Below, piece by piece: positions 2 through 34,525 of a DNA stretch of 34,525 nt (the stretch's first letter is position 1; every line of letters starts with the position of its first letter). Below the pieces are notes generated by a model. It was not told the origin of the DNA. It saw only the letters and a list, made by a program, of their open reading frames with translations, and searched no databases. The stretch comes from a virus, in IMG/VR virus record IMGVR_UViG_3300022223_000016, positions 1 to 34,525 of that record. One strand, given 5' to 3'. A program made the translations under genes and the position numbers.

Positions 2-1165
2 AAAACAATAGATAAACTTAAAGATCTGGGATTTAAAGTATCTACTCTCGAGGGGTTTTCTTTAAGTATTCAGGATCTTTATAACAAAAAATTAATCGAT
101 AAAGCTGATGAGCTAAAAGGAACTCACGAGCAAGATCATGAAGTGATGGGTAATAAAGAAATAACCGATGAGTTGAAAAGTATGCCGTTCTCTGTTTATA
201 TTGAGAGTGGGTCTAGAGGATCTTGGGATCAAGCAAAGCAGCTTTCATATAGTAGAGGTTATGTTGCAGATTTTAAAAATAATATCAAACCCAATCTAAT
301 TAGATCGTCATTTGTAAAAGGTCTTACCAAGAAAGAATATTTTGATAGTTGTTGGGGCTCTAGAAAGGGGTTGCTTGATACCGCTCTTTCAACTGGAGAA
401 TCTGGATATCTAACTAGACAGCTTATTTACAGTACTGTGTTTATTGAATTGGGTGATACAGAGGATTGCAAAACCACCGATGGCATAGAAGTAACAATTG
501 GAACCGAAGAAATAGCGAATACGTTTAAATGGAGGTATCAAATTACCGATACCGGATTGAAACTTATTAAGAACGAGAAGGAATTAATAGGTCAAACTAT
601 TAAAATTCGATCTCCTGTATATTGTAAATCCAAGAAAATATGTAAAAAATGTTACGGAACCTTGTATGGAATATTACATTCTAATCAAATAGGTGTCATT
701 GCTACCCAGGCGTTAGGAGAAAGAACCACGCAATTAGTTCTTAGAACTTTCCATCTTAGCGGGGTTGTCGGGTCTGGCGGTGATAACTCTTCTAAGAATG
801 ATGATATTATTACCGGGATCGGTGCTATTAATAGATTACTACATAAACCACAATCGTTTAAATTCGAACGACCAGAGCAATTTTTACACGAAATTTATTC
901 TATCTTTGATCAATACGGAAGTATTCAGCATATTCATTATGAGGTAGTATGTACTGCATTAATGTGGAGCAAAAACGATCCGTGGAGATTAGTTAAATCT
1001 AGGGATACGGTTAGGCCGGAATGGGTTAGCATATTGAAGGTACCAGATAAAACATCTTGGGTAATCGGAACTGCGTTCTCTAATTTAAAATCCAAGATGT
1101 TAGATAGTCTTGTCAATAGTAGACAAGACACAGATATTGTTCTTTCAGATTTATTTAAATATTAA
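2..1165 (+). CDS. RNA polymerase beta-prime subunit, C-terminal part (5' truncated by window edge)
   Basis: The reading frame is open from the first bases of the window, so the gene begins upstream; the GTG at 143 is internal to the similarity. In order it shows a G-F-S-L-S-I-Q-D-L segment like the beta-prime region after the active site, an SGSRGSWDQAKQL segment, the RKGLLDTAL-T--SGYLTR block, a four-cysteine zinc site (cysteine codons at 467, 623, 641 and 650) and the trigger-loop block GVIATQALGERTTQLVLRTFH. The trigger-loop Arg and His are kept, while the usual Met before the Arg is Leu. The catalytic NADFDGD motif is not in the window. It lies upstream, either in this gene or in a separate one, since large phages often split beta-prime. 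The beta gene follows after 17 bases with a GGAG ribosome site, so the two are probably co-transcribed. The family assignment is firm; whether the subunit is split cannot be judged here. Confidence 0.93.
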   Translation, partial: KTIDKLKDLGFKVSTLEGFSLSIQDLYNKKLIDKADELKGTHEQDHEVMGNKEITDELKSMPFSVYIESGSRGSWDQAKQLSYSRGYVADFKNNIKPNLIRSSFVKGLTKKEYFDSCWGSRKGLLDTALSTGESGYLTRQLIYSTVFIELGDTEDCKTTDGIEVTIGTEEIANTFKWRYQITDTGLKLIKNEKELIGQTIKIRSPVYCKSKKICKKCYGTLYGILHSNQIGVIATQALGERTTQLVLRTFHLSGVVGSGGDNSSKNDDIITGIGAINRLLHKPQSFKFERPEQFLHEIYSIFDQYGSIQHIHYEVVCTALMWSKNDPWRLVKSRDTVRPEWVSILKVPDKTSWVIGTAFSNLKSKMLDSLVNSRQDTDIVLSDLFKY

Positions 1166-1182
1166 TTCGGAGATTATATTTA

Positions 1183-4100
1183 ATGAGTAATATACTTAAT
1201 AGACGATCAGATGAATGGGATTTGGATAAAATAGCAAGTAATATATATAAAATGTTTTCTGCCGGAGTTAACGTAAATGGTTATAAAACAATCAATTACG
1301 AATGGCTTAAGAAAGGCGAACGCCGCAAGGAAGATCTAAAAACAGATAAATATAAAACTCTGAAAATAAATATTTCTACTCCAAATAACGAAACCTTGTT
1401 TTATACTATCGATGTTCCTATTTTGATAGATAATCATTTTTTTCAAATTGGCGGGGTTAAAAAAATACCCATTTATCAATTGATAGATCGCCATATTATA
1501 CATCGCGCCGAAGAACCCGACAAGATTAGATTAAAAACAAATATTACATCCGCGATATATAATAAAAAAGATATGATGGTAACTATTAATAATACACCCG
1601 TGTATTATCCATTACTATTAGTTAATACCATAAACAAAGAAACGTTTGACGGATATCTCGAGTCTCTTAATTTAGACAATATAGATCCTGCCGCTCAAAC
1701 TCATCTAGAAAATATTATAACAGAAACTGATAGATTATATAAAAAATATTCGAACAATTCTGGTCATGATATGGAAGAAGATTTGGGAGAAATATTGTTA
1801 GGATCTACCAAAAATCCGGATCCGAGAAAAAAAGCCAAGCAGTTTTTGCATTCCCTGAAGGCATCATATGAGATCGATATATTCAATAAAGAATTCATTA
1901 GTGGCCCTACGCTCATAACCGAATTTATACAAGCTATTGTAGATGGGCCACTTTCTGTCACCGATGTTAATAATAAACGCATACGATTTTCAGAATATAT
2001 CTTGTCTGGGTTGATTAAATATGTATATGGCCTTTCGGTAGCATTATTTAAAAAGATAGGGACAAAATATAATATCCCCAATAATGTTATTATCTCTTCG
2101 TGTTCTGTATCAGATATCGTTCGGGTGCATTCTGCTGTTAATCCAATAGGGGAAGTAGCTGCTTTATATCAAGCAACTCTCGTGGGGCCGGGCGGATTTA
2201 AAAAAGAAAATATTCCTCCCGATCTCAGGAATATGGATGATAGTCAATATGGTTACATTTGCCCCGCCGATACCCCGGATAGGGATAGCTGTGGTGTATT
2301 GTTAAATATGGTACCGGATGTATCTATTGACAAACTCGGGAAGTTCGAAAAGTTTGATGATCATGCAAATAAGGATATTACTAGTTATCCTATTAAATAT
2401 GTTCCTTTTATGGAAAATGATGATCAGACCCGCCTTCAAATGGCGACTAGCCAGATGAAGCAAAGTATCTATATAGAAAACTCTGAAAAGCCAATAATAA
2501 GATCTGGAAACGAAGGTCTGAATATAGAATCTACAACGTTCTACAATAAAGCTCCAAAAAACGGAAAGGTTATATTTAAAAATCACAGATTGTTAATTGT
2601 TTTATATGATGATAATACGCCGGAGATCTATGATCTTGGCTATAATAATTTATATCAGAGTATTTCAGATGTAATGTTGACATCTTTAAATATTGGCGAT
2701 ACATTTAAGATTGGCGATTGCATTACGTATTCTTCTTATATACAAGATGGCGAAGTAGCTCTTGGTAAAAATTTATTAACTGGTATTTGTATTTGGAAAG
2801 GATATAATTACGAAGACGGAATTGTTATATCCGAAAGTGTAAGTAAAAATGGATTTACGTCCCCGCATATGATAGATCTGTCCTTTACTATAGATAGTGG
2901 GAAGATTCTATTATCTTTAGACGATGATGAATACAAGCCATTGCCTAGCGTCGGAGAGACCATTAAAAGCGGAGATGCGTATGCAAAATTGAAGATTATA
3001 TCAACCGATATAGGACTTGAAAATATAAATAATCAGCCTAACGAATATAGGGCCCCGAGAGATTGTGAGATTGTTTCGGTTACTGTATATTCTAACTCAT
3101 GGAATAAAAAAATACACGAGTTTAATAAATTTATAGGGAGGATGAATTCTTATCAGTTAGAGGAATATTCATCTATTAAAGATGCTCTATCTCCGTATAT
3201 ATCCAAGCAAAAAATTACTGAACTAGTCAACGATCACGGCATTCTAACTCAAGAAGAAACTTCTAAAAAGAAATTTTCAAGAAAAGGAACATACATAAAT
3301 GGAACTTATATAGAAATCAAAGCCATTTACAAAGAATCGATTGGAGTTGGTGATAAAATAGCTAATAGACATGGTAATAAAGGTGTTATATCACGGGTCG
3401 TTCCAGATGAAGAAATGCCTGTTACCGAAGACGGTAGAAAGCTAGATATTATAATAAACCCCCTTGGTATATTATCCAGAATGAATTCCGGTCAGTTGTA
3501 TGAATTGCATTTATCGGAAGCTTTACAAAAGGGAAAAGAAAATATCTTAGAAATGATATATCAAAACGAAAAAATTCATAATATATATAAATATTATGAA
3601 GGGATACTTGAATTGTCTATTAATGATTCTGAAATAAAGAAAAAATTATTTGATGAATTTAAAGTGACATTGGAAACCAATCCTAATAATATCGACAAAA
3701 TTATTTATTCTATACAAAAACCGTTTGATAGCATTAGTCCTGATAATCTGAATATTTTAATGGAATATACGGGAGCTAAATATAAAACGGCTGTTTATGA
3801 TCCTGAATACAAAGTATATCTAAAAAATCCAATATCAGTTGGGTATATCTTTTTTACAAAATTGATTCATCGCGCATCAGAAAAAATTTCGGCTCGATCT
3901 ATAGGTCCATATTCCCAGAAAACTCTTCAACCAATGGGCGGCCGCACAAACAAAGGCGGTCATAGATTGGGAGAAATGGAGGTGTGGGCATTACTCGGGC
4001 ACGGAGCACACGGCATGACAAAGAACCTATTAACTACACATTCGGATAGTATAGGGCTTAAAAATAAACTTTTATCAGAAATGTTAGATAACCCGGAGTT

Positions 4101-4197
4101 ATCGGATTCCGATTATTCCGACGAAACCCCTCAATCTCTAGTATTATTGGTTTCTTATCTGAAATCAATAGGGATTGATATAAACCAACGTAAATAA
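1183..4197 (+). CDS. RNA polymerase beta subunit, single polypeptide
   Basis: This 1004-residue protein is a complete but compact beta subunit (the E. coli protein is 1342 residues), and it lacks room for the lineage-specific insertions. Recognisable blocks in order are GPGG (335-338) followed by YICPADTPDRDSCGVLL (the PIETPEGPNIGLI region), YEDGIVISES, GVGDKIANRHGNKGVIS (around 721-737), DIIINPLGILSRMN and, near the C-terminus, GPYSQKTLQPMGGR with GEMEVWAL (930-937). N- and C-lobes are in one chain, whereas several jumbo-phage polymerases split beta. With beta-prime next door it should form a phage multisubunit RNAP for phage promoters. Aligning the segment before GPGG with E. coli shows substitutions at the main rifampicin-contact positions. 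A GGAG site lies about eight bases before the ATG. Function is very secure; the promoter class it serves is inferred. Confidence 0.96.
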   Translation: MSNILNRRSDEWDLDKIASNIYKMFSAGVNVNGYKTINYEWLKKGERRKEDLKTDKYKTLKINISTPNNETLFYTIDVPILIDNHFFQIGGVKKIPIYQLIDRHIIHRAEEPDKIRLKTNITSAIYNKKDMMVTINNTPVYYPLLLVNTINKETFDGYLESLNLDNIDPAAQTHLENIITETDRLYKKYSNNSGHDMEEDLGEILLGSTKNPDPRKKAKQFLHSLKASYEIDIFNKEFISGPTLITEFIQAIVDGPLSVTDVNNKRIRFSEYILSGLIKYVYGLSVALFKKIGTKYNIPNNVIISSCSVSDIVRVHSAVNPIGEVAALYQATLVGPGGFKKENIPPDLRNMDDSQYGYICPADTPDRDSCGVLLNMVPDVSIDKLGKFEKFDDHANKDITSYPIKYVPFMENDDQTRLQMATSQMKQSIYIENSEKPIIRSGNEGLNIESTTFYNKAPKNGKVIFKNHRLLIVLYDDNTPEIYDLGYNNLYQSISDVMLTSLNIGDTFKIGDCITYSSYIQDGEVALGKNLLTGICIWKGYNYEDGIVISESVSKNGFTSPHMIDLSFTIDSGKILLSLDDDEYKPLPSVGETIKSGDAYAKLKIISTDIGLENINNQPNEYRAPRDCEIVSVTVYSNSWNKKIHEFNKFIGRMNSYQLEEYSSIKDALSPYISKQKITELVNDHGILTQEETSKKKFSRKGTYINGTYIEIKAIYKESIGVGDKIANRHGNKGVISRVVPDEEMPVTEDGRKLDIIINPLGILSRMNSGQLYELHLSEALQKGKENILEMIYQNEKIHNIYKYYEGILELSINDSEIKKKLFDEFKVTLETNPNNIDKIIYSIQKPFDSISPDNLNILMEYTGAKYKTAVYDPEYKVYLKNPISVGYIFFTKLIHRASEKISARSIGPYSQKTLQPMGGRTNKGGHRLGEMEVWALLGHGAHGMTKNLLTTHSDSIGLKNKLLSEMLDNPELSDSDYSDETPQSLVLLVSYLKSIGIDINQRK

Positions 4198-7687: not shown

Positions 7688-8977
7688 ATGACCAGTATGA
7701 CTAAAAAAGAATCGGCCGCTAATAAAAGTCACGAGCGCCAATATGTCCCACTTCACAATCTCATTTACAACACCATTCCTTCTTTTATCTCCGCGAAAGA
7801 GGCCGGTAAAGAAGTGGCGGTTCCGTATATCGTTGGTACTCCTGGAGGCGGAAAAACAAAAATGTTTCTTTCTGCGTTCGGAAGCAGCGAAACCAAAGTA
7901 CTGGCATATACGCCCGGACTTGAGCGCGTTGAGAAGTTTGGCGGAATTCCGGAAATCCAGGAAAAGGTTATTAATGGAAATACGGTTCTGACTACTCAAT
8001 GGACGATGCCGCAATTGATTTCCGATATCAACCAAGCCCTCGAAAGTCACGCTCGGGTTATTGTGCTGTTCGATGATTGGCACATCTGCGATCCAGAAAT
8101 CCAAAAGATTGGATTTGAGGTGTTCACTCATTACAGCCTCAATGGGCACAAGTTTGATGCGCGGAAAGTTCACTTTGTTTTGATGGGCAATGACAAATCG
8201 ACAGCCGGAGCAAAGCTTCAGCTTTCGGCAATTAAAAATCGCTGTGCCATGTATTATGCAAAAAGCGATATTCAATATTGGATCCAAAATTACGCCGTAC
8301 CAACGGGGATTCACCCAACTCTCCTCAGCTTTTTCGAAATGTCCAGTAACACCGGGTTTTTCCAAGAAGAAGAATCGACATCAAATCAGTTCGGATCTCC
8401 GCGATCGTGGTCTTCATTTGGTCACATCCTGAAAGAAGTTGAAAAATGTTCCCCAGCTGATGGACCATCCCCGGGTGATATTTTGGCATGTCTCGAAGCC
8501 AGTGTGAGCTCATCCGCGGCCCAGGCGTTTTTTGCGTACTATCAGGTGTATTCAAAGGTGCCGATCGATAAGATCTATCGGGATAAGAAGGTAACGATTC
8601 CGGCCGATCAAACCGACCGCTACGCATTGATGTCTGCATTGTACGAAAAATTGGTATCCGTATTTGTGGATGCGCACATCGAAGAAAAGAAGAATACGAA
8701 GGAGAGCAAAAAGAAAGCCGAAACCATGCGGGATACAAATCGCGAAGTGCTTATTTCATTCACGGATGGGATGATGAAGCAGGGATCGAAAGAATTGGTT
8801 ATCTCAATGGTTTCAAAATTGACCTCGACTCCGTTCCACGAAAGCGGCGCGGATCCAAGTCAAATGTTGGTCGATTTCATGGACCACAAAGACGCGCCAG
8901 CATTGGCAGATGCCATCAGTGAGGTATCTGGAAAGGCAAATCGCTGGAGTCATCAAAGAGGGCTTAAAAAGCTCTAG
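7688..8977 (+). CDS. MoxR-type AAA+ ATPase
   Basis: The 429-residue protein has a Walker A motif GTPGGGKT (50-57), a Walker B strand VIVLFDD (124-130), a sensor-1 strand FVLMGND (Asn168) and a downstream AIKNRC segment with a candidate arginine finger (Arg185). This arrangement fits MoxR/RavA-like ATPases, which act with VWA-domain partners as chaperones for assembling or remodelling protein complexes. The next gene supplies such a partner. The C-terminal half is helical, with a Lys/Glu-rich stretch around 335-355. The gene is markedly richer in GC than its flanks and uses different codons, suggesting a separate origin or different selection. Its ribosome site lies in a small hairpin. A phage gene with this pairing may help capsid or tail assembly; the substrate is unknown. 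Confidence 0.88.
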   Translation: MTSMTKKESAANKSHERQYVPLHNLIYNTIPSFISAKEAGKEVAVPYIVGTPGGGKTKMFLSAFGSSETKVLAYTPGLERVEKFGGIPEIQEKVINGNTVLTTQWTMPQLISDINQALESHARVIVLFDDWHICDPEIQKIGFEVFTHYSLNGHKFDARKVHFVLMGNDKSTAGAKLQLSAIKNRCAMYYAKSDIQYWIQNYAVPTGIHPTLLSFFEMSSNTGFFQEEESTSNQFGSPRSWSSFGHILKEVEKCSPADGPSPGDILACLEASVSSSAAQAFFAYYQVYSKVPIDKIYRDKKVTIPADQTDRYALMSALYEKLVSVFVDAHIEEKKNTKESKKKAETMRDTNREVLISFTDGMMKQGSKELVISMVSKLTSTPFHESGADPSQMLVDFMDHKDAPALADAISEVSGKANRWSHQRGLKKL

Positions 8978-8996
8978 ATATATAATTACGTTAGTA

Positions 8997-9020
8997 AGGG
9001 GTAGTATAAATACTACCCCT
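8997..9020 (+). terminator. Perfect 10-bp hairpin between the ATPase and VWA genes
   Basis: AGGGGTAGTA (8997-9006) and TACTACCCCT (9011-9020) pair perfectly around a TAAA loop. The bases after it (CACTTTAAC) are not a real U-run. It is therefore better read as a weak terminator, processing site or mRNA-stabilising hairpin that sets the relative output of the two partner genes. Confidence 0.6.
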
Positions 9021-9043
9021 CACTTTAACTCGCGCGAGGACCG

Positions 9044-10570
9044 ATGCAATTTAAAAATTTACAAGAAGTTAAGGATGCTAAAGCTACAAGCGTCAACGAA
9101 CTTTATGAAATACTGAAGGAATGTAATTTGATTTTGATGCACGAACCAAAACTGGAATTTTTTGGTATCCTGCTGTATGCAATGACTTACAAGGTTATTG
9201 ATGCAAAACAAAGTTTGGCACGTATTCCGACTCCTGGATATACGGATGGCAAAACCATTACATTGGTAGGAAATCTCAAGCTTGTCAATGAAAATGGAGA
9301 AGGAGTCGTATTCGAACACACCATTGATGGATTGTTGGTAGTATTGCTACACGAACTTCTTCATATCTTAAACATGCATGTTACAAGAACAGGTACCGAT
9401 AGGAACCCAACTATCTGGAATTTGGCGGTAGATCATATTGTGAACCGAACCATTATTCATGGATTCAGTGATAGAAACTCAAGAATGTCTGATATAGGGG
9501 AGAGATTTAAAGATGTGATTACAACCGCAAAAATGATTTATTTCGATGATATCCATACCGAGTTTCCGGATATCACCGCCGAAGAACTTTATGACAAAAT
9601 GATGAAGCAGGAAAACGGCTTCAAAGTAACCACCAAGGAAATGGAAATAACAATTCCTGGGGGCTCACCGGATGGCGAGGGAGAAGGCAATGCCCAATCC
9701 GAAGAAGAAGGGAAGGAGGGTGATGGGAAGCAAGCCAATGGATCAAATCCGGGCAATTCCCAAGGTATTACGTATAAGTACATAGAAATTGAAAAAGACG
9801 GCAAAAAATATTATGCGCCGTTGGATACCGAAGCTCCCTCCGCGCTGTCCGAAGAAGATCTCCAACAAGCTCAGAAGGATATGTATGACAAAGCAAAGAG
9901 CTTGTGGAACTCCGGTCAAATGTCTCATATGAAAGGTAATACCCCGGGCTCGTTCTCCACTATGTTTGACAAATTATTCGAAATCAAACTTCCGTGGGAC
10001 GATCTCCTGTCTAATGCGATTTTATATCCTGTTCAAAACCAGTCATCAAGAACCTGGTCGACGAAAAACATGTTTTTCAGAAATGTAAGAGTTCCGGGTG
10101 AGAAAGATACGTCTCTCTCAGCAAAGACTCTACTTGCCGTAGTGGATTCGTCTGGATCTATTTCTGATTCAAATCTCAGAAAATTCTTTGGAGTTTTACT
10201 GGGATCTAGAACCTATTTTTCGGATATTCATATCGTAGTCCATGATCATGGAGTACAAGGAGAATTAGAAATCTCTGAGTATGAGTTAAAAAATGAATCG
10301 GCCCTGGTAGATAAAATCAAATCCTATCATGTTCCTGGTAGAGGCGGTACATCTCATCATGAAGCATTTGAGAGGTCGGAGGAAATTTGTGAAGATAAAG
10401 CAGTTAGTTCTGTAATCTTCTTAACCGATTATTATTCAGATGTTCAGCATGTGTATAAGGACTATGACTTCATCAAGGAAATCGATTCGATATGGGCAAT
10501 AGTAGACAATCCAAGTTTGTCGGACGTTGGATTGGAAAATTGCGATACAACAACGATCCAATTGAATTAA
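9044..10570 (+). CDS. Metallopeptidase-like / VWA-domain protein, partner of the MoxR ATPase
   Basis: The 508-residue protein has two domains. The N-terminal one contains a zinc-peptidase-like HELLH (103-107) followed by NLAVDHIVNR, the pattern of the DUF2201-type putative metallopeptidase domain. A Gly/Glu/Asp-rich low-complexity linker covers about 207-240. The C-terminal domain is VWA-like with an apparently complete MIDAS: D-x-S-x-S at 368-372, Thr436 in GRGGTS and Asp462 in FLTDYYSD. MoxR ATPases typically pair with MIDAS proteins of this kind, the ATPase driving metal-dependent remodelling of a client. The ATG has CGAGGA six bases upstream. Whether the HExxH is catalytic is unknown. Its position just before packaging and tail genes suggests a role in virion assembly, which is inference. 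Confidence 0.88.
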   Translation: MQFKNLQEVKDAKATSVNELYEILKECNLILMHEPKLEFFGILLYAMTYKVIDAKQSLARIPTPGYTDGKTITLVGNLKLVNENGEGVVFEHTIDGLLVVLLHELLHILNMHVTRTGTDRNPTIWNLAVDHIVNRTIIHGFSDRNSRMSDIGERFKDVITTAKMIYFDDIHTEFPDITAEELYDKMMKQENGFKVTTKEMEITIPGGSPDGEGEGNAQSEEEGKEGDGKQANGSNPGNSQGITYKYIEIEKDGKKYYAPLDTEAPSALSEEDLQQAQKDMYDKAKSLWNSGQMSHMKGNTPGSFSTMFDKLFEIKLPWDDLLSNAILYPVQNQSSRTWSTKNMFFRNVRVPGEKDTSLSAKTLLAVVDSSGSISDSNLRKFFGVLLGSRTYFSDIHIVVHDHGVQGELEISEYELKNESALVDKIKSYHVPGRGGTSHHEAFERSEEICEDKAVSSVIFLTDYYSDVQHVYKDYDFIKEIDSIWAIVDNPSLSDVGLENCDTTTIQLN

Positions 10571-10886: not shown

Positions 10887-11105
10887 ATGAGTGATGGAAA
10901 CGGAAGTTTTTGGGGTGTAGTTCGTGATATATTCAATACAAATAAAATAGATTTGACATTTGATAAATCGGAGAGCGAATTGGAATTCAAGGTAACTAAC
11001 AAAGAATCCAAGACCGCTAATAGCATTAGCGTATCAAATGGAAGAACAAAAGTTACTTTAGGAGAACAAACCGAAAAAATGATTGACGCCGAATCTACAG
11101 AATAA
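10887..11105 (+). CDS. Small hypothetical protein
   Basis: This 72-residue protein is not recognised. It starts two bases after the preceding stop (TAATAATG) with no ribosome site of its own, so it is probably translated by coupling. The sequence is Ser/Thr/Lys/Glu-rich with alternating polar and hydrophobic residues (KIDLTFDKSESELEFKVTN), consistent with a small beta-rich fold. Its stop codon lies inside the first of three hairpins that fill the space up to the terminase gene. Confidence 0.6.
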   Translation: MSDGNGSFWGVVRDIFNTNKIDLTFDKSESELEFKVTNKESKTANSISVSNGRTKVTLGEQTEKMIDAESTE

Positions 11106-11209
11106 CCGCAATGACGCGGTTATAAACCCCCATAATCTCAGGATGGTGGTTTAGGAAGAACGCCGTTGGACAAGGATAACCTCCTGTCTATAACGGCGTT
11201 CTTTTTTTT
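11103..11209 (+). ncRNA. Candidate structured noncoding RNA / three-hairpin leader before terminase
   Basis: Three hairpins stand head to tail. HP1 is TAACCGC/GCGGTTA with a 6-base loop (11103-11122). HP2 is AAACCCCCAT/ATGGTGGTTT with one mismatch and a 9-base loop (11124-11152). HP3 is a 12-bp stem ending in a T-run (11156-11209). Together they make a compact 107-base structure that is noncoding apart from the stop codon of the preceding gene. It could be a small RNA released from the 3' end of that mRNA or merely a compound terminator. No known RNA family is recognised. Confidence 0.4.
11156..11209 (+). terminator. Strong intrinsic terminator before terminase
   Basis: AAGAACGCCGTT (11156-11167) pairs perfectly with AACGGCGTTCTT (11192-11203), followed by a continuous T-run to 11209. 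The 24-base loop can itself pair (GGACA/TGTCT and AGG/CCT). The loop includes ACCTCCT (11179-11185), the anti-Shine-Dalgarno sequence of 16S rRNA. This separates the RNAP/ATPase gene block from the terminase/tail block. Confidence 0.85.
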
Positions 11210-11235
11210 GTCTTTTTTCAAAATCCTGAAAAATA

Positions 11236-14043: not shown

Positions 14044-17000
14044 ATGCCAAAGAATTCATCTGGATCGTACAGCGATTCCTCTATTAAGACTTTAGTAGCG
14101 GAACTACGAGCCTCACAAAAAACAACCGATCAAAATATTTCTAAACTTGTTTCCGGAATAGGAGATCTTAAAGGTGTAGTATCTAAAAATCAAGAAACAG
14201 CTGGTGGTAACTCTGGGCACATAGAAAAATTAAATGGAAATATTCAAGATCTACAACAAACAATTCGCGATTTAAAATTAGAACATCGAAAACTAGGAAA
14301 ATCTATAGGGGAGACGGGGAATTCGTTTGAAAAATCAACTAAGACTATAGATCAATCTGTACAATCATTCGAAAGAACCTCGGAAAAACATATACAAACT
14401 AATGAACAAATGATTGATACCATGGGATCTTTAGAAAAAACTACAAGAGAAACTAATGATACAATGAGTCATTTAGCTTCTACAATGAGATCCTTGACTA
14501 CCACTCTCGCGATTACTACAATGAGTTTAGCTACGGGAGCTGCTTTATTATACGCCAAGACAAGTCTTCGTGCTGTCAAGATCGGAGGCAAAGCAATTTC
14601 GTTACCGTTTAGAGCAGCAGCTGCGCCTATAAGTCCGCAACTTAATAGAGGCAAAGAGGATGCGCGAGAAGCGTTCGCATCATTCAAAAACTTATTGGGC
14701 ATGGGTTTAATCGGGGGTATCGGAGCAAATCCGGCAGTGGCAGAGGCTGCAAGGGCGTCATGGGGGGCTATAGGCGGGGGTGTCGGAGCTGCTGGTCGTG
14801 GTGTAGGAAGAGCAGCAAAGGCCGTCACTAGTGAGATGATGAGCGTCGGGGGAGCTGTAGGAAGAGGAGGGTTAAAGGTTGCGCGTGGGGGCGTCAAATT
14901 GCTTACTGGTGGGCTTTTAGGTAGAGGGGGAGGTGGTAGAGGGGGAGCACAGCTAGCATACAATGTAGGCTCGGATGGGAGTATTCAGGACATATCTATA
15001 TCTAATTCTGTATCATCTAATAAAAATTCTACAAGCCTCGGCGGAGAACTTACTCAGATAAAGTTATTATTAGAAGAGGGATTTAGTAAAAAGAAAAAAG
15101 GTATATTTAATAGATTTATAAATACTGGATTTGGTCTTGTAAAGGGAATAATTGGATATGCTCTTCCTATGTTTGGAGCTGGTTATAGAAGTGAATTACC
15201 CAATCCAAATAGAATCGGAATATTTAACGCGATGTATAAAGCGTTATCATTAATATATGTACATGGCAGATTCTCGGCCGATGAAAATAATGCATTATTA
15301 ATTAATATCGCATCTATGTTAAAAGCTGGATTTAAATTAGATATGCCTATATATCAACCAAAGTCCAGAACTATACGTCAAATGGTATCCAGGTTTGTAG
15401 TTAGAAAATTATTTGGTCAGGATCAAATAGATCCAAAGCAATTGATACCCCTGCTAGCCGGAGGGGCCGCAGTTGCTACCATGGTAGGGGCTTCTGTAGT
15501 TAGCAAGGGGAAAGCAGCAGTTGGTGCTGCCAAGGGAAAATACGCAGCAATGGGCGGGGCCGCCGGTATAGGAAAATCCATGAAGGGGGGAATCCAGGGT
15601 GCGGGCGCAGCCATTACAGAAGGTGCTAAAAAGGCATTGGCTCAAGCACAACAAGAAAAAAATCAGTTAATGGATCTGTGGAACAATACGGATGGTTCTA
15701 ATATTTTAGATAAGATTGGTAATTTCGCTGGGGCCCTCATGCAACATATCGGAGGAAGAATTTCTGATGGATCTGCGTTTCTTTTTGAAAGACTAAATCA
15801 AGAAGTAAAGGGCAATGGAACTTTTATGGATAGAATAGCGTATGCGTGGCAAGAGCTTGTACCTGGAATATTAAAAAAAGGATTTTTCGGTGAGGATGGA
15901 AAGGGCGGTGTGTTAGGTATTGTAAGTTTATCATTCAAAGGATTTGGAGAAACTATTGATACCGTAACAGGGATATTGAAGAGTCTTCTTAAATTAGATT
16001 TTGCTGGTGCGGGCGCTGGTGCTATGGATTTATTGGATCCAAATAAAGGAACCCTTGGGAGAATTTTTAGTTTCCACATTGGTATGTTTTCAATGGATTT
16101 TATGAAAGATCTCCGTCTATTTATCACAGAAAAAATATTACCAAAAAGCCTTCATAAAATCCATGAAGGTATAGAAGAAACTCTATTAAAATTTATATGG
16201 ATGCCAATTAAAATAATGGAAAACATATTCGGTGGGGAAGTCGCTGGAGGAGAAAATATGACATTTGCTCAGAGAATGTGGGAAAGAGTAAAGATGTCAA
16301 TGGAACCAATTAAAGACTTCTTCACTTCTATGCTAGGGTCTTTAAATACTATGTCGAAAACATTTAAAGAATATATAGCACAGGGGTTTGTTAAAACTAT
16401 AGTATCTGATATAGGAACAATTGCTAAAAACTTAGGACATATAGCCGGAGATGTAGCTGGTAGGGTAGGAAGAACCGCATCATATGGATTGGGAGGAAAT
16501 ATTCCTGGTACAGTAGCGGGTATGGCTACTGGGGGTTACGTGGATGCTCCTATTGGAACTGGAGTACCAATAACCGTTCACGGCAAAGAACTAATTGTAC
16601 CAGCGGATCAACCAGACTTCTGGACGCCTATAACTACTAGATTAGATTCTATAGTTTCTCTATTACAAGATGGTGGCGTTGGGGGAAATACAACCATCAT
16701 CAATAAAAAGGGAGGTGGTATATTATCGACTATAGCCGGATCATTAATTACATTGCCATTTAAATTATCTGCTGGCTTGGCTTCTGGATTTGGAAAAGTA
16801 TTCATGGGGTATTTAAACTTAAAGTTTACTGCATTAACTGCGGCTATTAAAATAGGTACATCTGCCATCACTAATAGCATGCCGGTTATTACAGGTGCTT
16901 TAGGAGGAATGATTAGTTTAACTAGTGGTTTATTTAGTGCTATATTACACGGCCCGAAATTAGCATTGAAAGCGATATCCATGCCATTTAAATTATTTAA

Positions 17001-18015
17001 TTTTGCATTCAAACCATTCTCGTGGATAAAAAATCTGGCAACAGCCGGATTTAAACGGGTAAGACGTGCATTAATGGGAGAAACCAAAGTATCAGAGGAT
17101 GCCAATGGAAATCCTATATACGCAAGATGGCCAGTGACAATTATCAAATTATTGAAGCAGATTAGAGATAGAGTCGGGGACGGCGGTTTGGGTAAAACTA
17201 TGTTAACGGTAGGACAAATTTTTGTTAGTGCCCTATCCGGTATTGCGTCCATACTGGCTGGCGGACTGGGAATGATTGGGAGCGGACTTCAAGCAATAGC
17301 CATGGCGATGGCCGGATCCGCCATGTTTGGTGGAAGTAGTATTCTAGATTTAATACCTGGTAAAAAGGGAAAGGGGTTTAAAGGATTACTTAAAGGCGGT
17401 GGCGGATTACTTAAAGGCGGTGGCGGATTCCTTAAAGGCCTTGGGGGCGCAGCAAAAGGATTCGGGCGCGGAATCCCATTAGTGGGAAGCGCTTTAGGTG
17501 CAAGTGCTACGATAGCATCTGCTTACGACACCTATAGCTCCGGCGCAACTGATATGGAAAAGAATAAGGCAATATATAAAGGAGTTGGGCAAGTCAGTGG
17601 GGGCCTTCTTGGAGGAGCAGGTGGAGCTGCGATGGGTGCAGCAATCGGAACTGCTATTTTTCCAGGGGTAGGAACTCTTATAGGAGCCGGTATAGGGGCA
17701 TGGGCTGGAGGAGCTGCTGGGGAAGGAGCTGGTGGTTATTTAGGAGAAGGTGCTTATAATTTAGCAAATTCTACAGATACTATAACAAGACAGAAATCAC
17801 GACAAGAACAAATTCGAGCCAGTATGCAGTCATCTAGATTAACTCCGGAATTAAGAAATATGACACAAGATTTAATAGAGTCCCAAGAAAAAAGTGCCAA
17901 AGGAGTTTCGAGTGCGATAATCCAAACCAACAATACTAATGTTGTTAATAGCAATACAACCAATAATCGCGGGCGTCCTATGGATCCTGCTACTGCAAAT
18001 GGAAATTTGCAGTAA
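14044..18015 (+). CDS. Tail tape measure protein
   Basis: This is the longest gene here (1323 residues) and has the usual tape-measure make-up. An N-terminal helical/coiled-coil region rich in Gln, Asn, Lys and Glu (about 15-135) is followed by a hydrophobic stretch (about 155-180). Then come very Gly/Ala-rich segments, amphipathic helices in the middle, and the motif GGYVDAPIGTGVPITVHGKELIVP (about 835-858), which is common in phage tape measures. The last third has long hydrophobic Gly-zipper-like segments and an Asn/Thr-rich C-terminus (TNNTNVVNSNTTNN). At about 1.5 angstrom per residue it would correspond to a tail near 200 nm; this rule is approximate. Unusually, it is on the opposite strand from sheath, tube and chaperone-like genes. 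Confidence 0.88.
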   Translation: MPKNSSGSYSDSSIKTLVAELRASQKTTDQNISKLVSGIGDLKGVVSKNQETAGGNSGHIEKLNGNIQDLQQTIRDLKLEHRKLGKSIGETGNSFEKSTKTIDQSVQSFERTSEKHIQTNEQMIDTMGSLEKTTRETNDTMSHLASTMRSLTTTLAITTMSLATGAALLYAKTSLRAVKIGGKAISLPFRAAAAPISPQLNRGKEDAREAFASFKNLLGMGLIGGIGANPAVAEAARASWGAIGGGVGAAGRGVGRAAKAVTSEMMSVGGAVGRGGLKVARGGVKLLTGGLLGRGGGGRGGAQLAYNVGSDGSIQDISISNSVSSNKNSTSLGGELTQIKLLLEEGFSKKKKGIFNRFINTGFGLVKGIIGYALPMFGAGYRSELPNPNRIGIFNAMYKALSLIYVHGRFSADENNALLINIASMLKAGFKLDMPIYQPKSRTIRQMVSRFVVRKLFGQDQIDPKQLIPLLAGGAAVATMVGASVVSKGKAAVGAAKGKYAAMGGAAGIGKSMKGGIQGAGAAITEGAKKALAQAQQEKNQLMDLWNNTDGSNILDKIGNFAGALMQHIGGRISDGSAFLFERLNQEVKGNGTFMDRIAYAWQELVPGILKKGFFGEDGKGGVLGIVSLSFKGFGETIDTVTGILKSLLKLDFAGAGAGAMDLLDPNKGTLGRIFSFHIGMFSMDFMKDLRLFITEKILPKSLHKIHEGIEETLLKFIWMPIKIMENIFGGEVAGGENMTFAQRMWERVKMSMEPIKDFFTSMLGSLNTMSKTFKEYIAQGFVKTIVSDIGTIAKNLGHIAGDVAGRVGRTASYGLGGNIPGTVAGMATGGYVDAPIGTGVPITVHGKELIVPADQPDFWTPITTRLDSIVSLLQDGGVGGNTTIINKKGGGILSTIAGSLITLPFKLSAGLASGFGKVFMGYLNLKFTALTAAIKIGTSAITNSMPVITGALGGMISLTSGLFSAILHGPKLALKAISMPFKLFNFAFKPFSWIKNLATAGFKRVRRALMGETKVSEDANGNPIYARWPVTIIKLLKQIRDRVGDGGLGKTMLTVGQIFVSALSGIASILAGGLGMIGSGLQAIAMAMAGSAMFGGSSILDLIPGKKGKGFKGLLKGGGGLLKGGGGFLKGLGGAAKGFGRGIPLVGSALGASATIASAYDTYSSGATDMEKNKAIYKGVGQVSGGLLGGAGGAAMGAAIGTAIFPGVGTLIGAGIGAWAGGAAGEGAGGYLGEGAYNLANSTDTITRQKSRQEQIRASMQSSRLTPELRNMTQDLIESQEKSAKGVSSAIIQTNNTNVVNSNTTNNRGRPMDPATANGNLQ
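17383..17442 (+). repeat. 21-base tandem repeat in the tape measure gene
   Basis: A 21-base unit starting GGATTACTTAAAGG occurs twice exactly (17383-17403 and 17404-17424), with a third degenerate copy to about 17442. It encodes G-L-L-K-G-G-G repeats. In-frame units like this let the protein change length by seven residues. Confidence 0.85.
17991..18014 (+). promoter_or_regulatory. 10-bp hairpin with GNRA loop over the tape-measure stop codon
   Basis: TACTGCAAAT and ATTTGCAGTA pair perfectly around a GGAA tetraloop. The stop codon (18013-18015) lies at its base. No U-run follows, so it is more likely an mRNA-stabilising, processing or translation-uncoupling element than a terminator. Confidence 0.6.
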
Positions 18016-28976: not shown

Positions 28977-30848
28977 TTATGTTAAATCAGTTATTATATA
29001 AGAAAATGAATCTCGAACAGCGCCAAAATCAAATAAAACATCTCTTGATAACTGATCGAAAAATTGAATATCTTCGTAAAAATAATGCGAAGAATCTTGC
29101 ACAACTAAAAAATCTCCAATTGGATCTTTAATAGTATATACAGTTAGAAAGTCTCTTAAGTATGCTCTATATGGTTTAAAGAAATTTATAACCTCTTTTA
29201 ATTGTGATACTATATTCGCGCCACCTATAGTATAAACAAACTCGCGTTTGAACATCTTTGCATTTATAACATAATATTCTAAATCAGTTAAGAATGTAGA
29301 TATAACGCTATCTTCCCCAGATATATCTACCGCGTCATCTATATCAACTTTAAAATTATAGAATCCTGCCATTAAAATGATATCAGATATTTTCGTTAAT
29401 TGAACAGCATTGTCTAGTGATATAATGGACGGAATTTCTCTAGTTAGTTTTTGAAATCGAGATTCCAAAGACGCCTTCCGTTCTTCATATGTCCAGATGC
29501 GTTTATCGAATTCTGTTTCTAACTCATTAATAACTATATCATAATCTACGTCGTCTTTATCGTCGCGAATTCCAGCGGTTTCTATATCAAGAGGAGCATT
29601 TATACCGTTGTAATATACATATTTTTTTCCTATATCATCTTCCAACGAATATGTTGTTTCATATAAGTAAAACAATGCAAGTAATATTTCTAAAATAGAA
29701 AAGGTTCCATTGAAATTAGATAAAGTGACCGGTTCATAAAGACTTCCGCTTAATGTATTATTCAACTCAGAAACAGGAAATTTTATAGTTGTGTTGACCC
29801 AAACAGTTCCATTGTAAACATAATGAGTATCTGTTTCGGTTGACAGAACCACCATATCCTTTTCTGGAGGAGTATAACTCCAACCGGTTCCTGTATATTT
29901 AATTACATAATTGGGATATTCTTCTATGCCCGACGTTTCATCAACTTCTATATCTCCCATTGTAAAAACATTGTCAGCATATATATAAGTATCACCAGTG
30001 GTGGGGGTTGCAGGAATAACCGTCACTACACCCAATATATTATCGGTATGTGGTTTTAATACATAGTTCAGCCAGTATGTATAACTTTCCTGAATAGTCC
30101 TGTGTAAAATAGATAATCCATATAATACTTCCGATAAATTGGCACCGCTGTGTAATGAAAATTGAGTTGTGAGAGATGGGAGTTTTATAACATTGGAATC
30201 ATACAAGGTTGATATTTCGGCTTCTGAAATCTTCCAAAATTTATTACCTTCTATGAATGTAGAATAAGGAATAACTTGTCTATATGTAGCATTATCTACA
30301 GCTGTTTCTGGATATACAGGAACGGCCTCAGCTACAAACACTCCATCCCGCTTGTGTACCCACCATTCGGATAAAACGATATTAGTTATTCCGGTATACT
30401 GCAATATTTTTACAAGCGCTTCTGGGGTTCCTTTCTTTTTATATAGGTTTATTATATCTTGAATCAACAAGGCTTTAAATTGGGTGTTAATTACTTTACT
30501 AGGATATGGAAATCCAAAGCTTAACAATAATTCATCCAGTTCGATATCATCTAATGAAAATAAATCTACTAATCTTTTGTTTTGTGTAGAAAGTGCTCTA
30601 TGTACGGAGTACCAGTCTATCATCATCTGACGCACGCGCTTATGGTCCTCTGAAAAATATGGAGGAACATCTAATACACGTTCAAAATAATGCTCTGAGG
30701 TTTCGTACTCCCCTAGTAAAAGATCTGATAAATTAAAAGGAATAGAGTTATCTGCTGCATATTCTCTTAATTGATCCGACGTCAGTGTATTCTTTTTCTT
30801 GATATACTGAATTAATTTATAGAATAAATCTATATTAGCGTGAGCCAT
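28977..30848 (-). CDS. Baseplate protein, tail protein I-like, with inserted module
   Basis: The 623-residue protein contains LLIQDIINLYKKKGTPEALVKILQYTGI (about 128-155), the core of P2 I-like/gp7-type baseplate proteins, and an N-terminal helical region. About residues 278-352 hold VIPATPTTGDTYIYA ... YTGTGWSYTPP ... THYVYNGTVWV, which matches the layout of DUF2793-type modules found in phage tails. The helical C-terminal part includes RKASLESRFQKLTREIPSI and VVDDAVDISGE-like acidic residues. It would sit in the wedge next to the gp6-like protein, which seems to carry a related insertion. The upstream gene ends three bases before its start. Confidence 0.8.
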   Translation of the reverse strand: MAHANIDLFYKLIQYIKKKNTLTSDQLREYAADNSIPFNLSDLLLGEYETSEHYFERVLDVPPYFSEDHKRVRQMMIDWYSVHRALSTQNKRLVDLFSLDDIELDELLLSFGFPYPSKVINTQFKALLIQDIINLYKKKGTPEALVKILQYTGITNIVLSEWWVHKRDGVFVAEAVPVYPETAVDNATYRQVIPYSTFIEGNKFWKISEAEISTLYDSNVIKLPSLTTQFSLHSGANLSEVLYGLSILHRTIQESYTYWLNYVLKPHTDNILGVVTVIPATPTTGDTYIYADNVFTMGDIEVDETSGIEEYPNYVIKYTGTGWSYTPPEKDMVVLSTETDTHYVYNGTVWVNTTIKFPVSELNNTLSGSLYEPVTLSNFNGTFSILEILLALFYLYETTYSLEDDIGKKYVYYNGINAPLDIETAGIRDDKDDVDYDIVINELETEFDKRIWTYEERKASLESRFQKLTREIPSIISLDNAVQLTKISDIILMAGFYNFKVDIDDAVDISGEDSVISTFLTDLEYYVINAKMFKREFVYTIGGANIVSQLKEVINFFKPYRAYLRDFLTVYTIKDPIGDFLVVQDSSHYFYEDIQFFDQLSRDVLFDFGAVRDSFSYIITDLT

Positions 30849-32635: not shown

Positions 32636-33238
32636 TTATATTGTTGTTCTTAGATCGGACTGGGCTTTAGTTAAGCGATCTGTCCATTTAGTGATTTGAT
32701 TCTTAATGGGCTCCAAACACTTTTCTTTTTTTTCGGGGGATCCTGCTCCATTGCATTTATACTCGAAAGATTTGATTTTGCGTAAAGCATCCGATATAGC
32801 TCTAACTTTACATTGTGCTTGTGTTTTGCCGGTTAGATTTTTACATCTTTCCATAGCCCTTCTATACTCAAACGAAGCCATACTAGACGAAGTAGATCCG
32901 GCGGCGGCGTTAGCAGAATCGATCTTTCTATCTACTCCTACCTCTGCCTCCAAAATATGAGGGATTGTAGATTCAATTACCTCCACATAAGCTTCGTCTA
33001 GATTCATATCCGGATTCATTTCTATTAATTTCATCATCGGGATTATTATGGATTCAAATATTTTAATCTTTTTAATTCCTGCGAGTTTATTTCTCGATTT
33101 ATGAAGCTGCTTTATCCGTCTAGTTTGTCCCGCTGGACTTTCATAACTAACCATGATGTGCTCAATTAGAATAGATTCTATAAAACAATCCATCATCGCG
33201 TTGAGCTCTTCTAAATCTTCTAGTATATATTCGTCCAT
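32636..33238 (-). CDS. Hypothetical helical protein with Cys-rich C-terminus, first gene of the leftward unit
   Basis: This 200-residue protein is almost entirely helical and acidic at its N-terminus (MDEYILEDLEELNAMMDCF). The C-terminal 75 residues repeat a C-x(n)-C hairpin pattern: RCKNLTGKTQAQCKVRA and YKCNGAGSPEKKEKCLEPI. That suggests two disulfide- or metal-stabilised helical turns. It is the first gene 52 bases after the promoter-like octamer. There is no obvious ribosome site, so its leader may use another initiation signal. No family is recognised. Confidence 0.7.
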   Translation of the reverse strand: MDEYILEDLEELNAMMDCFIESILIEHIMVSYESPAGQTRRIKQLHKSRNKLAGIKKIKIFESIIIPMMKLIEMNPDMNLDEAYVEVIESTIPHILEAEVGVDRKIDSANAAAGSTSSSMASFEYRRAMERCKNLTGKTQAQCKVRAISDALRKIKSFEYKCNGAGSPEKKEKCLEPIKNQITKWTDRLTKAQSDLRTTI

Positions 33239-33420
33239 AATAATCTATAAATAAGGTGTTGGTTAATAATAGTATATAACCTGATATTTTGTCCTCGAAT
33301 AACGTCATAAACGGAACTACTAATTTGACTATATATATGAAGTTTTGAGCATACAGGGTTTATGGAATATTCTGTGTGTTTATTGGAACTGATCAGAACC
33401 TTCAACACAGGAGAATTAAA
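33239..33420. other. Divergent intergenic control region
   Basis: These 182 bases separate the leftward structural operon from the rightward GC-rich gene. They hold a leader hairpin (GGTTA/TAACC, 33261-33281) and the leftward octamer. They also hold a TTGACT-containing AT-rich stretch (33326) that may be a rightward promoter without a clear -10 box, and the AGGAG site for 33421. No tRNA or other gene is seen. Confidence 0.6.
33290..33297 (-). promoter_or_regulatory. Candidate phage promoter octamer (leftward structural operon)
   Basis: Leftward CGAGGACA, preceded by GTTATT and followed by AAATATCA, lies 52 bases before the first leftward gene. It is one of three exact intergenic copies. Confidence 0.6.
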
Positions 33421-33777
33421 ATGAAACTGAGACCTTCCAATAATGGTATCCGTGGTATCCGTCTCAACAACTTGTCCACTGACGGCGGGTTGTCCGAAGC
33501 CAACAAAAACCGCCTCATTGGCGCTGGCGTTACCGCCGGTCTCGGTGCGGTGGCCGGCGGGATTGTTTGGGGTGTGAAAGCCTGGAACAAACCCGAGAAC
33601 GTGGCGAAGAGGGCAGAGAAGGCCAAGGTGAAAGCCGAGACCAAAGCTGCCGAAGCGGAAAAGAAGGCCGCCGAGGCCAAGAAGACCGCGGATGACAAAC
33701 AGGCCAAGGCCGACGCCGAGAAGGCCGCCAAGGAAAAGGCCGACGCCGAAAAGGCCAAGGCCGAGTCGGGAAATTAG
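33421..33777 (+). CDS. Membrane/helix protein, short (zero-frame) product of a frameshifted gene
   Basis: The 118-residue protein starts at an ATG with AGGAG seven bases upstream; an in-frame GTG at 33376 lacks such a site. It has a polar N-terminus and then a glycine-zipper hydrophobic segment, RLIGAGVTAGLGAVAGGIVWG (about 31-51), long enough to cross a membrane. From about 60 to 115 it is an almost uninterrupted Ala/Lys/Glu/Asp helix like TolA-type or single-helix spacers. Its codons are much richer in GC than the neighbouring genes. The frame ends AESGN-stop with the last codons inside the slippery heptamer GGGAAAT, so a fraction of ribosomes probably continue in the -1 frame. The function is unknown; an envelope-inserted or virion-tethering protein is possible. 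Confidence 0.8.
   Translation: MKLRPSNNGIRGIRLNNLSTDGGLSEANKNRLIGAGVTAGLGAVAGGIVWGVKAWNKPENVAKRAEKAKVKAETKAAEAEKKAAEAKKTADDKQAKADAEKAAKEKADAEKAKAESGN
33768..33774 (+). promoter_or_regulatory. -1 programmed frameshift slippery heptamer GGGAAAT
   Basis: In the zero frame it reads G GGA AAT directly before TAG, a perfect X-XXY-YYZ site. Seven bases on, a 5-bp hairpin (33782-33794, CTCTT/AGGAG) begins at the usual stimulator distance. A stronger 8-bp hairpin follows at 33849-33868. AGGAGG (33776-33781) overlaps the stop. Lambda's tail frameshift uses the similar GGGAAAG. Confidence 0.75.
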
Positions 33778-34525
33778 GAGGCTCTTCCCAGGAGACGAAT
33801 ACGGCGGAAACGTCGAATAAATCTTCTGGGAGTGAAGATGGAGCCACCGGGGGTTCTCAGGAGCCCCCACCGACTTCTTCCAAGAAGGAAGACAATGCCG
33901 ACCAAACATCTTCTGGCGGTGAAAGTGCTGCAAATGAGATTTTTCCAAAGATCCGTTTCGCTATGATTTACATGGCAGATTTGGCGGATCAAGTCGCCTC
34001 AGAAAAGTTCGAGGTAACTGGCGATGAAAAAGATCTTCTTAGTGCGGTGATGCAGCAAGCCAATATGATGCTTTATTATTATAAAGCTTCCACTCAGGAA
34101 AAATTGAAGTTTGTCGATCCCGACCATGCGGCGCACATGAAAGAGTGGTTCGGATCCAATTTCTTCGATCTTCTCGATATCCTGGTGGACTCTCTTTCCA
34201 AAGTGCTGGGGCCTCCTGTAGAAATACCGGAGGAAGAATCGGAAGAGGAAAAACATATCGCATACTTCGAGATCATAGAATCCTCCCAGAAAACAATTCT
34301 GAATGCGTGTAATAACGGCGCACTCGGGAAAATTCTCGATGGGTTGGATGGCTTGAAGGTTGCTTTGGACGATCCATCCATATCGAATATGGACTTGTAT
34401 CGGGGGTTCGTTCCTTCCGATCCGGATTCTCCAGACGTGTCCCTCTTCAAGGCGCTTGCATCCAGCGATGCCACCACTCCCCTTCTGAAGTTCCATGCCC
34501 AAAGCATTATCAAGCGGCATGAAGA
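33775..34525 (+). CDS. -1-frame continuation: linker plus C-terminal domain (3' truncated by window edge)
   Basis: After the slip the frame reads GKLGGSSQETNTAETSNKSSG and continues as a typical Ser/Gly/Glu/Pro linker (to about 33920). A globular, mostly helical domain follows (KIRFAMIYMADLADQVASEK, then WFGSNFFDLLDILVDSLSKV). It stays open to the last base, so the protein continues beyond the window. Between the zero-frame stop and 33963 the frame contains no ATG, GTG or TTG, and the ATG at 33963 has no ribosome site. The domain is therefore best explained as part of a fusion with the membrane/helix protein. The other frames here are Arg-rich or broken. No family is recognised. The GC-rich composition continues from the first part. 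Confidence 0.75.
33849..33868 (+). promoter_or_regulatory. Strong 8-bp hairpin within the -1-frame linker
   Basis: GGGGGTTC pairs with GGAGCCCC and its extension around a TCAG loop (one G-U). It lies about 75 bases after the slippery site, too far for a classic stimulator by itself, but could act through a longer-range fold. Confidence 0.45.

Follow-up and report, generated by a model that had tools for sequence, protein, structure and literature searches.

How is the gene at the far end of this phage contig translated: only as the 118-residue protein of its annotated frame, or also as a longer product, made by ribosomes that shift into the -1 frame immediately ahead of the stop codon? Most phage frameshifts on record belong to tail chaperone and capsid genes, and a gene caller would cut a protein of the longer kind short at residue 118. 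The stretch of DNA analyzed here (the window, 34,525 nucleotides) is a linear IMG/VR contig fragment from an uncultured large phage. The gene, which is known from this one contig, has its 0-frame stop 750 bases from the contig end (Table 1). The initial annotation proposed a -1 frameshift, and the elements of such a site are all seen in the sequence: a slippery heptamer, an adjacent 0-frame stop, a strong predicted 3' structure at canonical spacing, and an open -1 frame that lacks a start. A programmed -1 ribosomal frameshift is probably the best explanation for this arrangement.

Table 1. Features of the contig-edge gene and other regions referred to in the text (window coordinates unless another contig is named).
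Feature	Coordinates	Strand	Basis
Ribosome-binding region, AGGAG plus spacer, ahead of ATG 33421	33410-33420	+	sequence
0-frame ORF, 118 aa: basic N-terminus, glycine-rich hydrophobic segment (residues 33-53), Lys/Ala-rich helix	33421-33777	+	
Slippery heptamer G_GGA_AAT (GGGAAAT)	33768-33774	+	sequence, in-frame heptamer scan
0-frame stop TAG	33775-33777	+	
-1 frame extension, at least 250 codons, ending with the contig: Ser/Thr/Glu/Gly-rich linker (to about 33938), then helical domain	33774-34525	+	
Main hairpin (33780-33785/33840-33845, 33786-33795/33822-33831, 33802-33806/33811-33815; GAAA loop; -30.4 kcal/mol)	33780-33845	+	predicted
Second hairpin, GGGGGUUC-UCAG-GAGCCCCC, 8-bp GC stem, no U tract	33849-33868	+	predicted
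Tape-measure gene	14044-18015		
RNA polymerase gene sets	window 2-4197; G003 about 119489-129837; G004 about 177552-186668		

The contig codes for RNA polymerase beta' and beta, a T4-type large terminase, a tape measure, a contractile sheath and baseplate proteins. Single-sequence scans with the RNA polymerase beta and with the terminase found no relatives. With RNA polymerase beta and sheath alignments as queries, relatives were recovered that include contigs of 236 kb (G004) and 275 kb (G003). These are collinear with the window from 2 to 31700 at most of the conserved genes, with 41-45% identity in RNA polymerase beta and 43-50% in the sheath. In the syntenic relatives other genes occupy the place corresponding to the contig-edge gene, and no homologue of either of its parts was found in them. 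Homology searches with both parts (phages, plasmids, IMG/VR, GTDB genomes, PDB, Pfam, PHROGs, NCBIfam) gave nothing usable: the C part had no PHROG, Pfam or NCBIfam match, and the N part had weak low-complexity matches only. The lone viral match, in L002, spans 15 residues inside an unrelated long ORF and was rejected as a homologue. The gene is the sole one found on the + strand at that contig end. GC content rises abruptly from 0.27-0.33 to about 0.6 at 33401-33501, and the 0-frame ORF has a GC of 0.59 and a GC3 of 0.71, where the contig values are about 0.35 and 0.28; the -1 part has 0.48 and 0.51. Since the gene is GC-rich and absent from the relatives, it is probably an accessory, acquired gene.

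Other features of these genomes deserve mention in their own right. Besides orthologues of the window's RNA polymerase pair, the relatives carry a second, divergent beta/beta'-like gene set, which suggests that they have two RNA polymerases of their own, like phiKZ-like phages. An ATPase gene and a VWA/metallopeptidase-like (DUF2201) gene at 7688-10570, GC-richer (0.40-0.46) than the contig, are kept as a pair in G002-G004. The Tail_P2_I-like protein of 623 aa encoded at 28977-30848 has its homologue within an ORF of about 2,600-2,760 aa in G003 and G001 (G003:C1:238803-246677). Both the G002 terminase homologue (G002:C1:20801-22506) and the G004 baseplate homologue (G004:C1:118751-121336) are seemingly split into two ORFs, which appears to reflect an inserted element, an intron or an assembly error. 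The intergenic region upstream of the window's terminase gene (11100-11220) holds several hairpins and a strong intrinsic terminator (GAACGCCGTT...AACGGCGTTC followed by T8), and is among the contig's most stable folds. A conserved-looking phage protein (L119:9722-11239(-), L126:3-1154, L133:963-2174), sited similarly upstream of tail genes, combines an acidic helical N part with a long basic stretch of Ala, Gly and Lys, a single hydrophobic segment and a C-terminus bearing a Cys pair; window 32636-33238 gives a weak match to one of these three.

The heptamer had been described as lying in frame directly before the stop codon, and the ORF does end TCG GGA AAT TAG. X_XXY_YYZ heptamers are frequent in the window's genes (81 of 10,373 in-frame positions), so the heptamer alone is weak evidence; the one at 33768-33774 is the only one of the 81 that touches a stop. 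The -1 frame is stop-free from 33696 to the contig end, and its 250 codons after the heptamer hold no stop, with 12 and 10 in the other two frames over the same length; none of 3,000 dinucleotide shuffles left this frame open. It encodes, much as first described, a linker and then a helical domain, the helices coming from a low-confidence model. It also contains no ATG, GTG or TTG upstream of 33963, where the first ordinary start lies 63 codons in, and that ATG has neither a clear ribosome site nor a Shine-Dalgarno sequence ahead of it. The initial annotation further placed the switch between natural reading frames at the heptamer. Amino-acid composition agrees, favoring frame 0 before the heptamer and the -1 frame after it; the preference for the latter is strong from 33963 and weak in the linker (33778-33962).

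The structure that follows is larger than was first thought. Instead of a small hairpin seven bases on, a 66-nt hairpin of -30.4 kcal/mol is predicted after a spacer of 5 nt, with a second hairpin behind it. In the main hairpin, which has about 21 pairs at pair probabilities of 0.82-1.0, GGCUCUUCCCAGGAGA pairs with UCUUCUGGGA and GGAGCC, and the inner stem is capped by a GAAA tetraloop; the bases from the third of the heptamer through 33776 are predicted to be unpaired. According to empirical rules, bacterial stimulators start 4-10 nt past the motif, have G-C as the first pair, span 17-140 nt and have a stability of at least 7.6 kcal/mol (PMC4066793), and the 33780-33845 hairpin falls within all of these ranges. 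No clear upstream Shine-Dalgarno stimulator was seen, and Rfam gave no match. The second hairpin was rejected as a terminator because it has no U tract.

How unusual is this fold? The contig was surveyed in 100-nt windows tiled every 20 nt on both strands (n = 3,444), and the segment 33775-33874, the start of which was fixed by the heptamer end and not optimized, out-folds all of those sampled, with a GC-corrected residual of -5.1 sd. Tiled windows that overlap this segment likewise rank near the top. Over 126 nt, z was -5.5 relative to dinucleotide shuffles, and the regional fold was reached by 0 of 2,000 synonymous shuffles that left the protein of the -1 frame and its codon usage unchanged. 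The fold 3' of 33768-33774 is the strongest among the 81 in-frame heptamers, at -49.8 versus -30.8 for the next.

A wider comparison took in 2,870 distinct ORFs from the window and from related or RNA polymerase-sharing phage contigs. Among these there are 162 heptamers no more than 5 codons from a stop, 25 of which are followed by at least 60 stop-free codons in the -1 frame. The majority of the 25 have a start codon no more than a few codons away, being ordinary neighbors, and none approaches the structure found here (next best -26.4). Only at this ORF end do a heptamer, a long -1 extension lacking a start and a fold of this kind occur together. An ORF at L047:302-1381 ends near a TTTTTTT heptamer and has a 240-codon -1 extension that is start-less for 48 codons; this could be either a homopolymer error or another frameshift.

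If the site works as a programmed frameshift, the majority of ribosomes would translate the 0-frame ORF and stop at TAG, yielding the 118-aa protein. The hairpin at 33780 would be met with GGA and AAT in the P and A sites, and some ribosomes would step back one base onto GGG AAA, then read TTA GGA GGC and onward, appending the disordered linker and the helical domain. The outcome would be two products with a common N-terminus, in a ratio set by the slip, with the distal domain only on the longer. The junction was originally given as GKLGGSSQ; because AAT would be decoded as Asn before the slip, the standard mechanism predicts mostly ...AESGN-LGGSSQ... in its place, and the predicted trans-frame tryptic peptide spanning the slip is AESGNLGGSSQETNTAETSNK.

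Both slippage and the slip rate are inferred, and the heptamer is not of the best kind. When heptamers were compared systematically in E. coli, nearly all exceeded background if given a strong pseudoknot, and those with a purine/pyrimidine-mixed second codon, such as AAU, shifted poorly (PMC4066793). G_GGA_AAT belongs to this AAU class and is expected to be weak in E. coli, which counts against the frameshift reading; E. coli may not represent the host. The low-efficiency G_GGA_AAC is nonetheless used by IS elements (PMC4066793), and G_GGA_AAC and G_GGA_AAG serve the g-t genes of archaeal tailed viruses (PMC5009743). A site that slips rarely would fit a long form made in small amounts, and the strong hairpin may compensate for the poor heptamer.

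Could the two frames simply be one? A continuous ORF would look like this if the contig were missing a base near the GGGAAA run, by a sequencing or assembly error or a fresh strain mutation, and any single-base change within about 80 nt (33697-33777) gives the same picture. The site is also close to the end of a single metagenome contig and beside strong hairpins. Elsewhere, however, the assembly is clean, since none of the matches to relatives' proteins, which cover 24,343 window bases with the gene itself outside that coverage, switches frame. This puts the indel rate at no more than about 1.2e-4 per base, so that about 0.01 would be expected in the 80-nt interval. An indel would also leave unexplained why the switch falls exactly at an X_XXY_YYZ heptamer that is followed, at canonical spacing, by the strongest RNA structure of the contig. 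Viral contigs, searched with a pattern tolerant of base-count changes, held no second copy of the site, although such collections may omit very near records. We regard an indel as rather improbable.

Translation of the downstream part as a gene of its own is less likely still. It would start at ATG 33963, perhaps coupled through the overlap of that codon (ATGA) with the TGA of a frame-0 continuation (33838-33966), or at a non-AUG codon, for example ACG 33801 after AGGAG at 33790-33794. AGGAG-like sequences do occur at 33776-33781 and 33790-33794, but they are mostly buried in stems with pair probabilities near 1. The 63 codons without an ordinary start and the missing Shine-Dalgarno sequence speak against this view too, and a start at 33963 would not account for the 186 nt of open, linker-like frame ahead of it; the frame-0 continuation is Arg-rich and has a poor composition score.

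A pseudogene in decay, or foreign or host DNA joined by chance to the contig end, would agree with the sharp GC change and the absence of the gene from syntenic relatives, but this is very unlikely: both parts look like intact, natural frames, the genes at 7688-10570 are also GC-richer and yet conserved in relatives, and bacterial genomes and plasmids gave no match. Bypassing of the T4 gene 60 kind, from the AAT before the stop to the AAT at 33798, would skip part of the hairpin and give a product without AESGNLGGSSQETN; it has matched codons in the right frame, AGGAG ahead of the landing codon and a stop immediately past the take-off, as in gene 60 (PMC5009743), but chance alone often supplies a matching codon within about 50 nt (hand estimate about 0.3), the take-off codon lies outside any stem and a standard slippery site suffices, so we give it hardly any credence.

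What would the frameshift products be? The N part starts with a basic region and goes on with a single hydrophobic, glycine-rich stretch (Kyte-Doolittle mean, calculated by hand, about 1.7 over 19 residues) and a Lys/Ala helix, a layout that we take to resemble TolA domains I-II, as a resemblance and not a membership. From that one stretch we infer a membrane role and location. Single-sequence AlphaFold renders the C part as all helices with a mean pLDDT of 52, too poor for a fold search, and the -1 part can be described, with low confidence, as a disordered linker plus a helical domain. The simplest view is of a membrane-tethered pair with the distal domain only in the long form. More speculatively, the gene might stand for a new family of accessory phage proteins, distinct from the usual frameshifted tail, capsid and transposase genes. 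In such a family, strongly stimulated -1 slippage on a non-classical G_GGA_AAU heptamer would determine how much protein is made as a membrane-anchored Lys/Ala coil alone and how much carries a helical distal domain on the same anchor. If the frameshift is real, finding so well stimulated a site in a putative membrane protein, and in a large phage that has its own multisubunit RNA polymerase, would widen the list of phage frameshifts, and would test whether a strong hairpin makes the poor G_GGA_AAU useful in a non-enteric host.

Among known systems, the lambda-type tail assembly chaperone G/GT is similar in having a -1 shift at G_GGA_AAN near the 3' end of the short gene, and in a long form that gains a C-terminal domain (PMC5009743). 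The link to lambda-like tail genes made in the initial annotation is nevertheless not supported. The gene matches no known chaperone family, begins at 33421, away from the interval between major tail gene and tape measure in which such chaperones are encoded, and lies on the strand opposite to the neighboring, divergently oriented tail operon. Its architecture, a hydrophobic segment and a Lys/Ala helix, is also different, and it has a strong hairpin, whereas some tailed-phage sites have none. The E. coli dnaX and IS3/IS911 signals share an X_XXY_YYZ heptamer and a stable 3' stem-loop at short spacing (PMC3711429, PMC4066793), but have AAG or AAA in the A site where AAU is found here, and an upstream Shine-Dalgarno stimulator that is not clearly present here; the product is neither a polymerase subunit nor a transposase. 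An IS-element (IS3/IS1 transposase) frameshift was dropped because OrfA/OrfB domains were not found with Pfam or NCBIfam. In T3/T7 gene 10 and Lactobacillus phage A2, a -1 frameshift likewise adds an extra domain to a fraction of the protein (PMC5009743); the proteins extended there belong to the capsid or tail and frequently carry Ig-like domains, whereas the extension here is predicted, by a low-confidence model, to be all-helical. The mechanism is already known, and its use in such a gene appears to be new.
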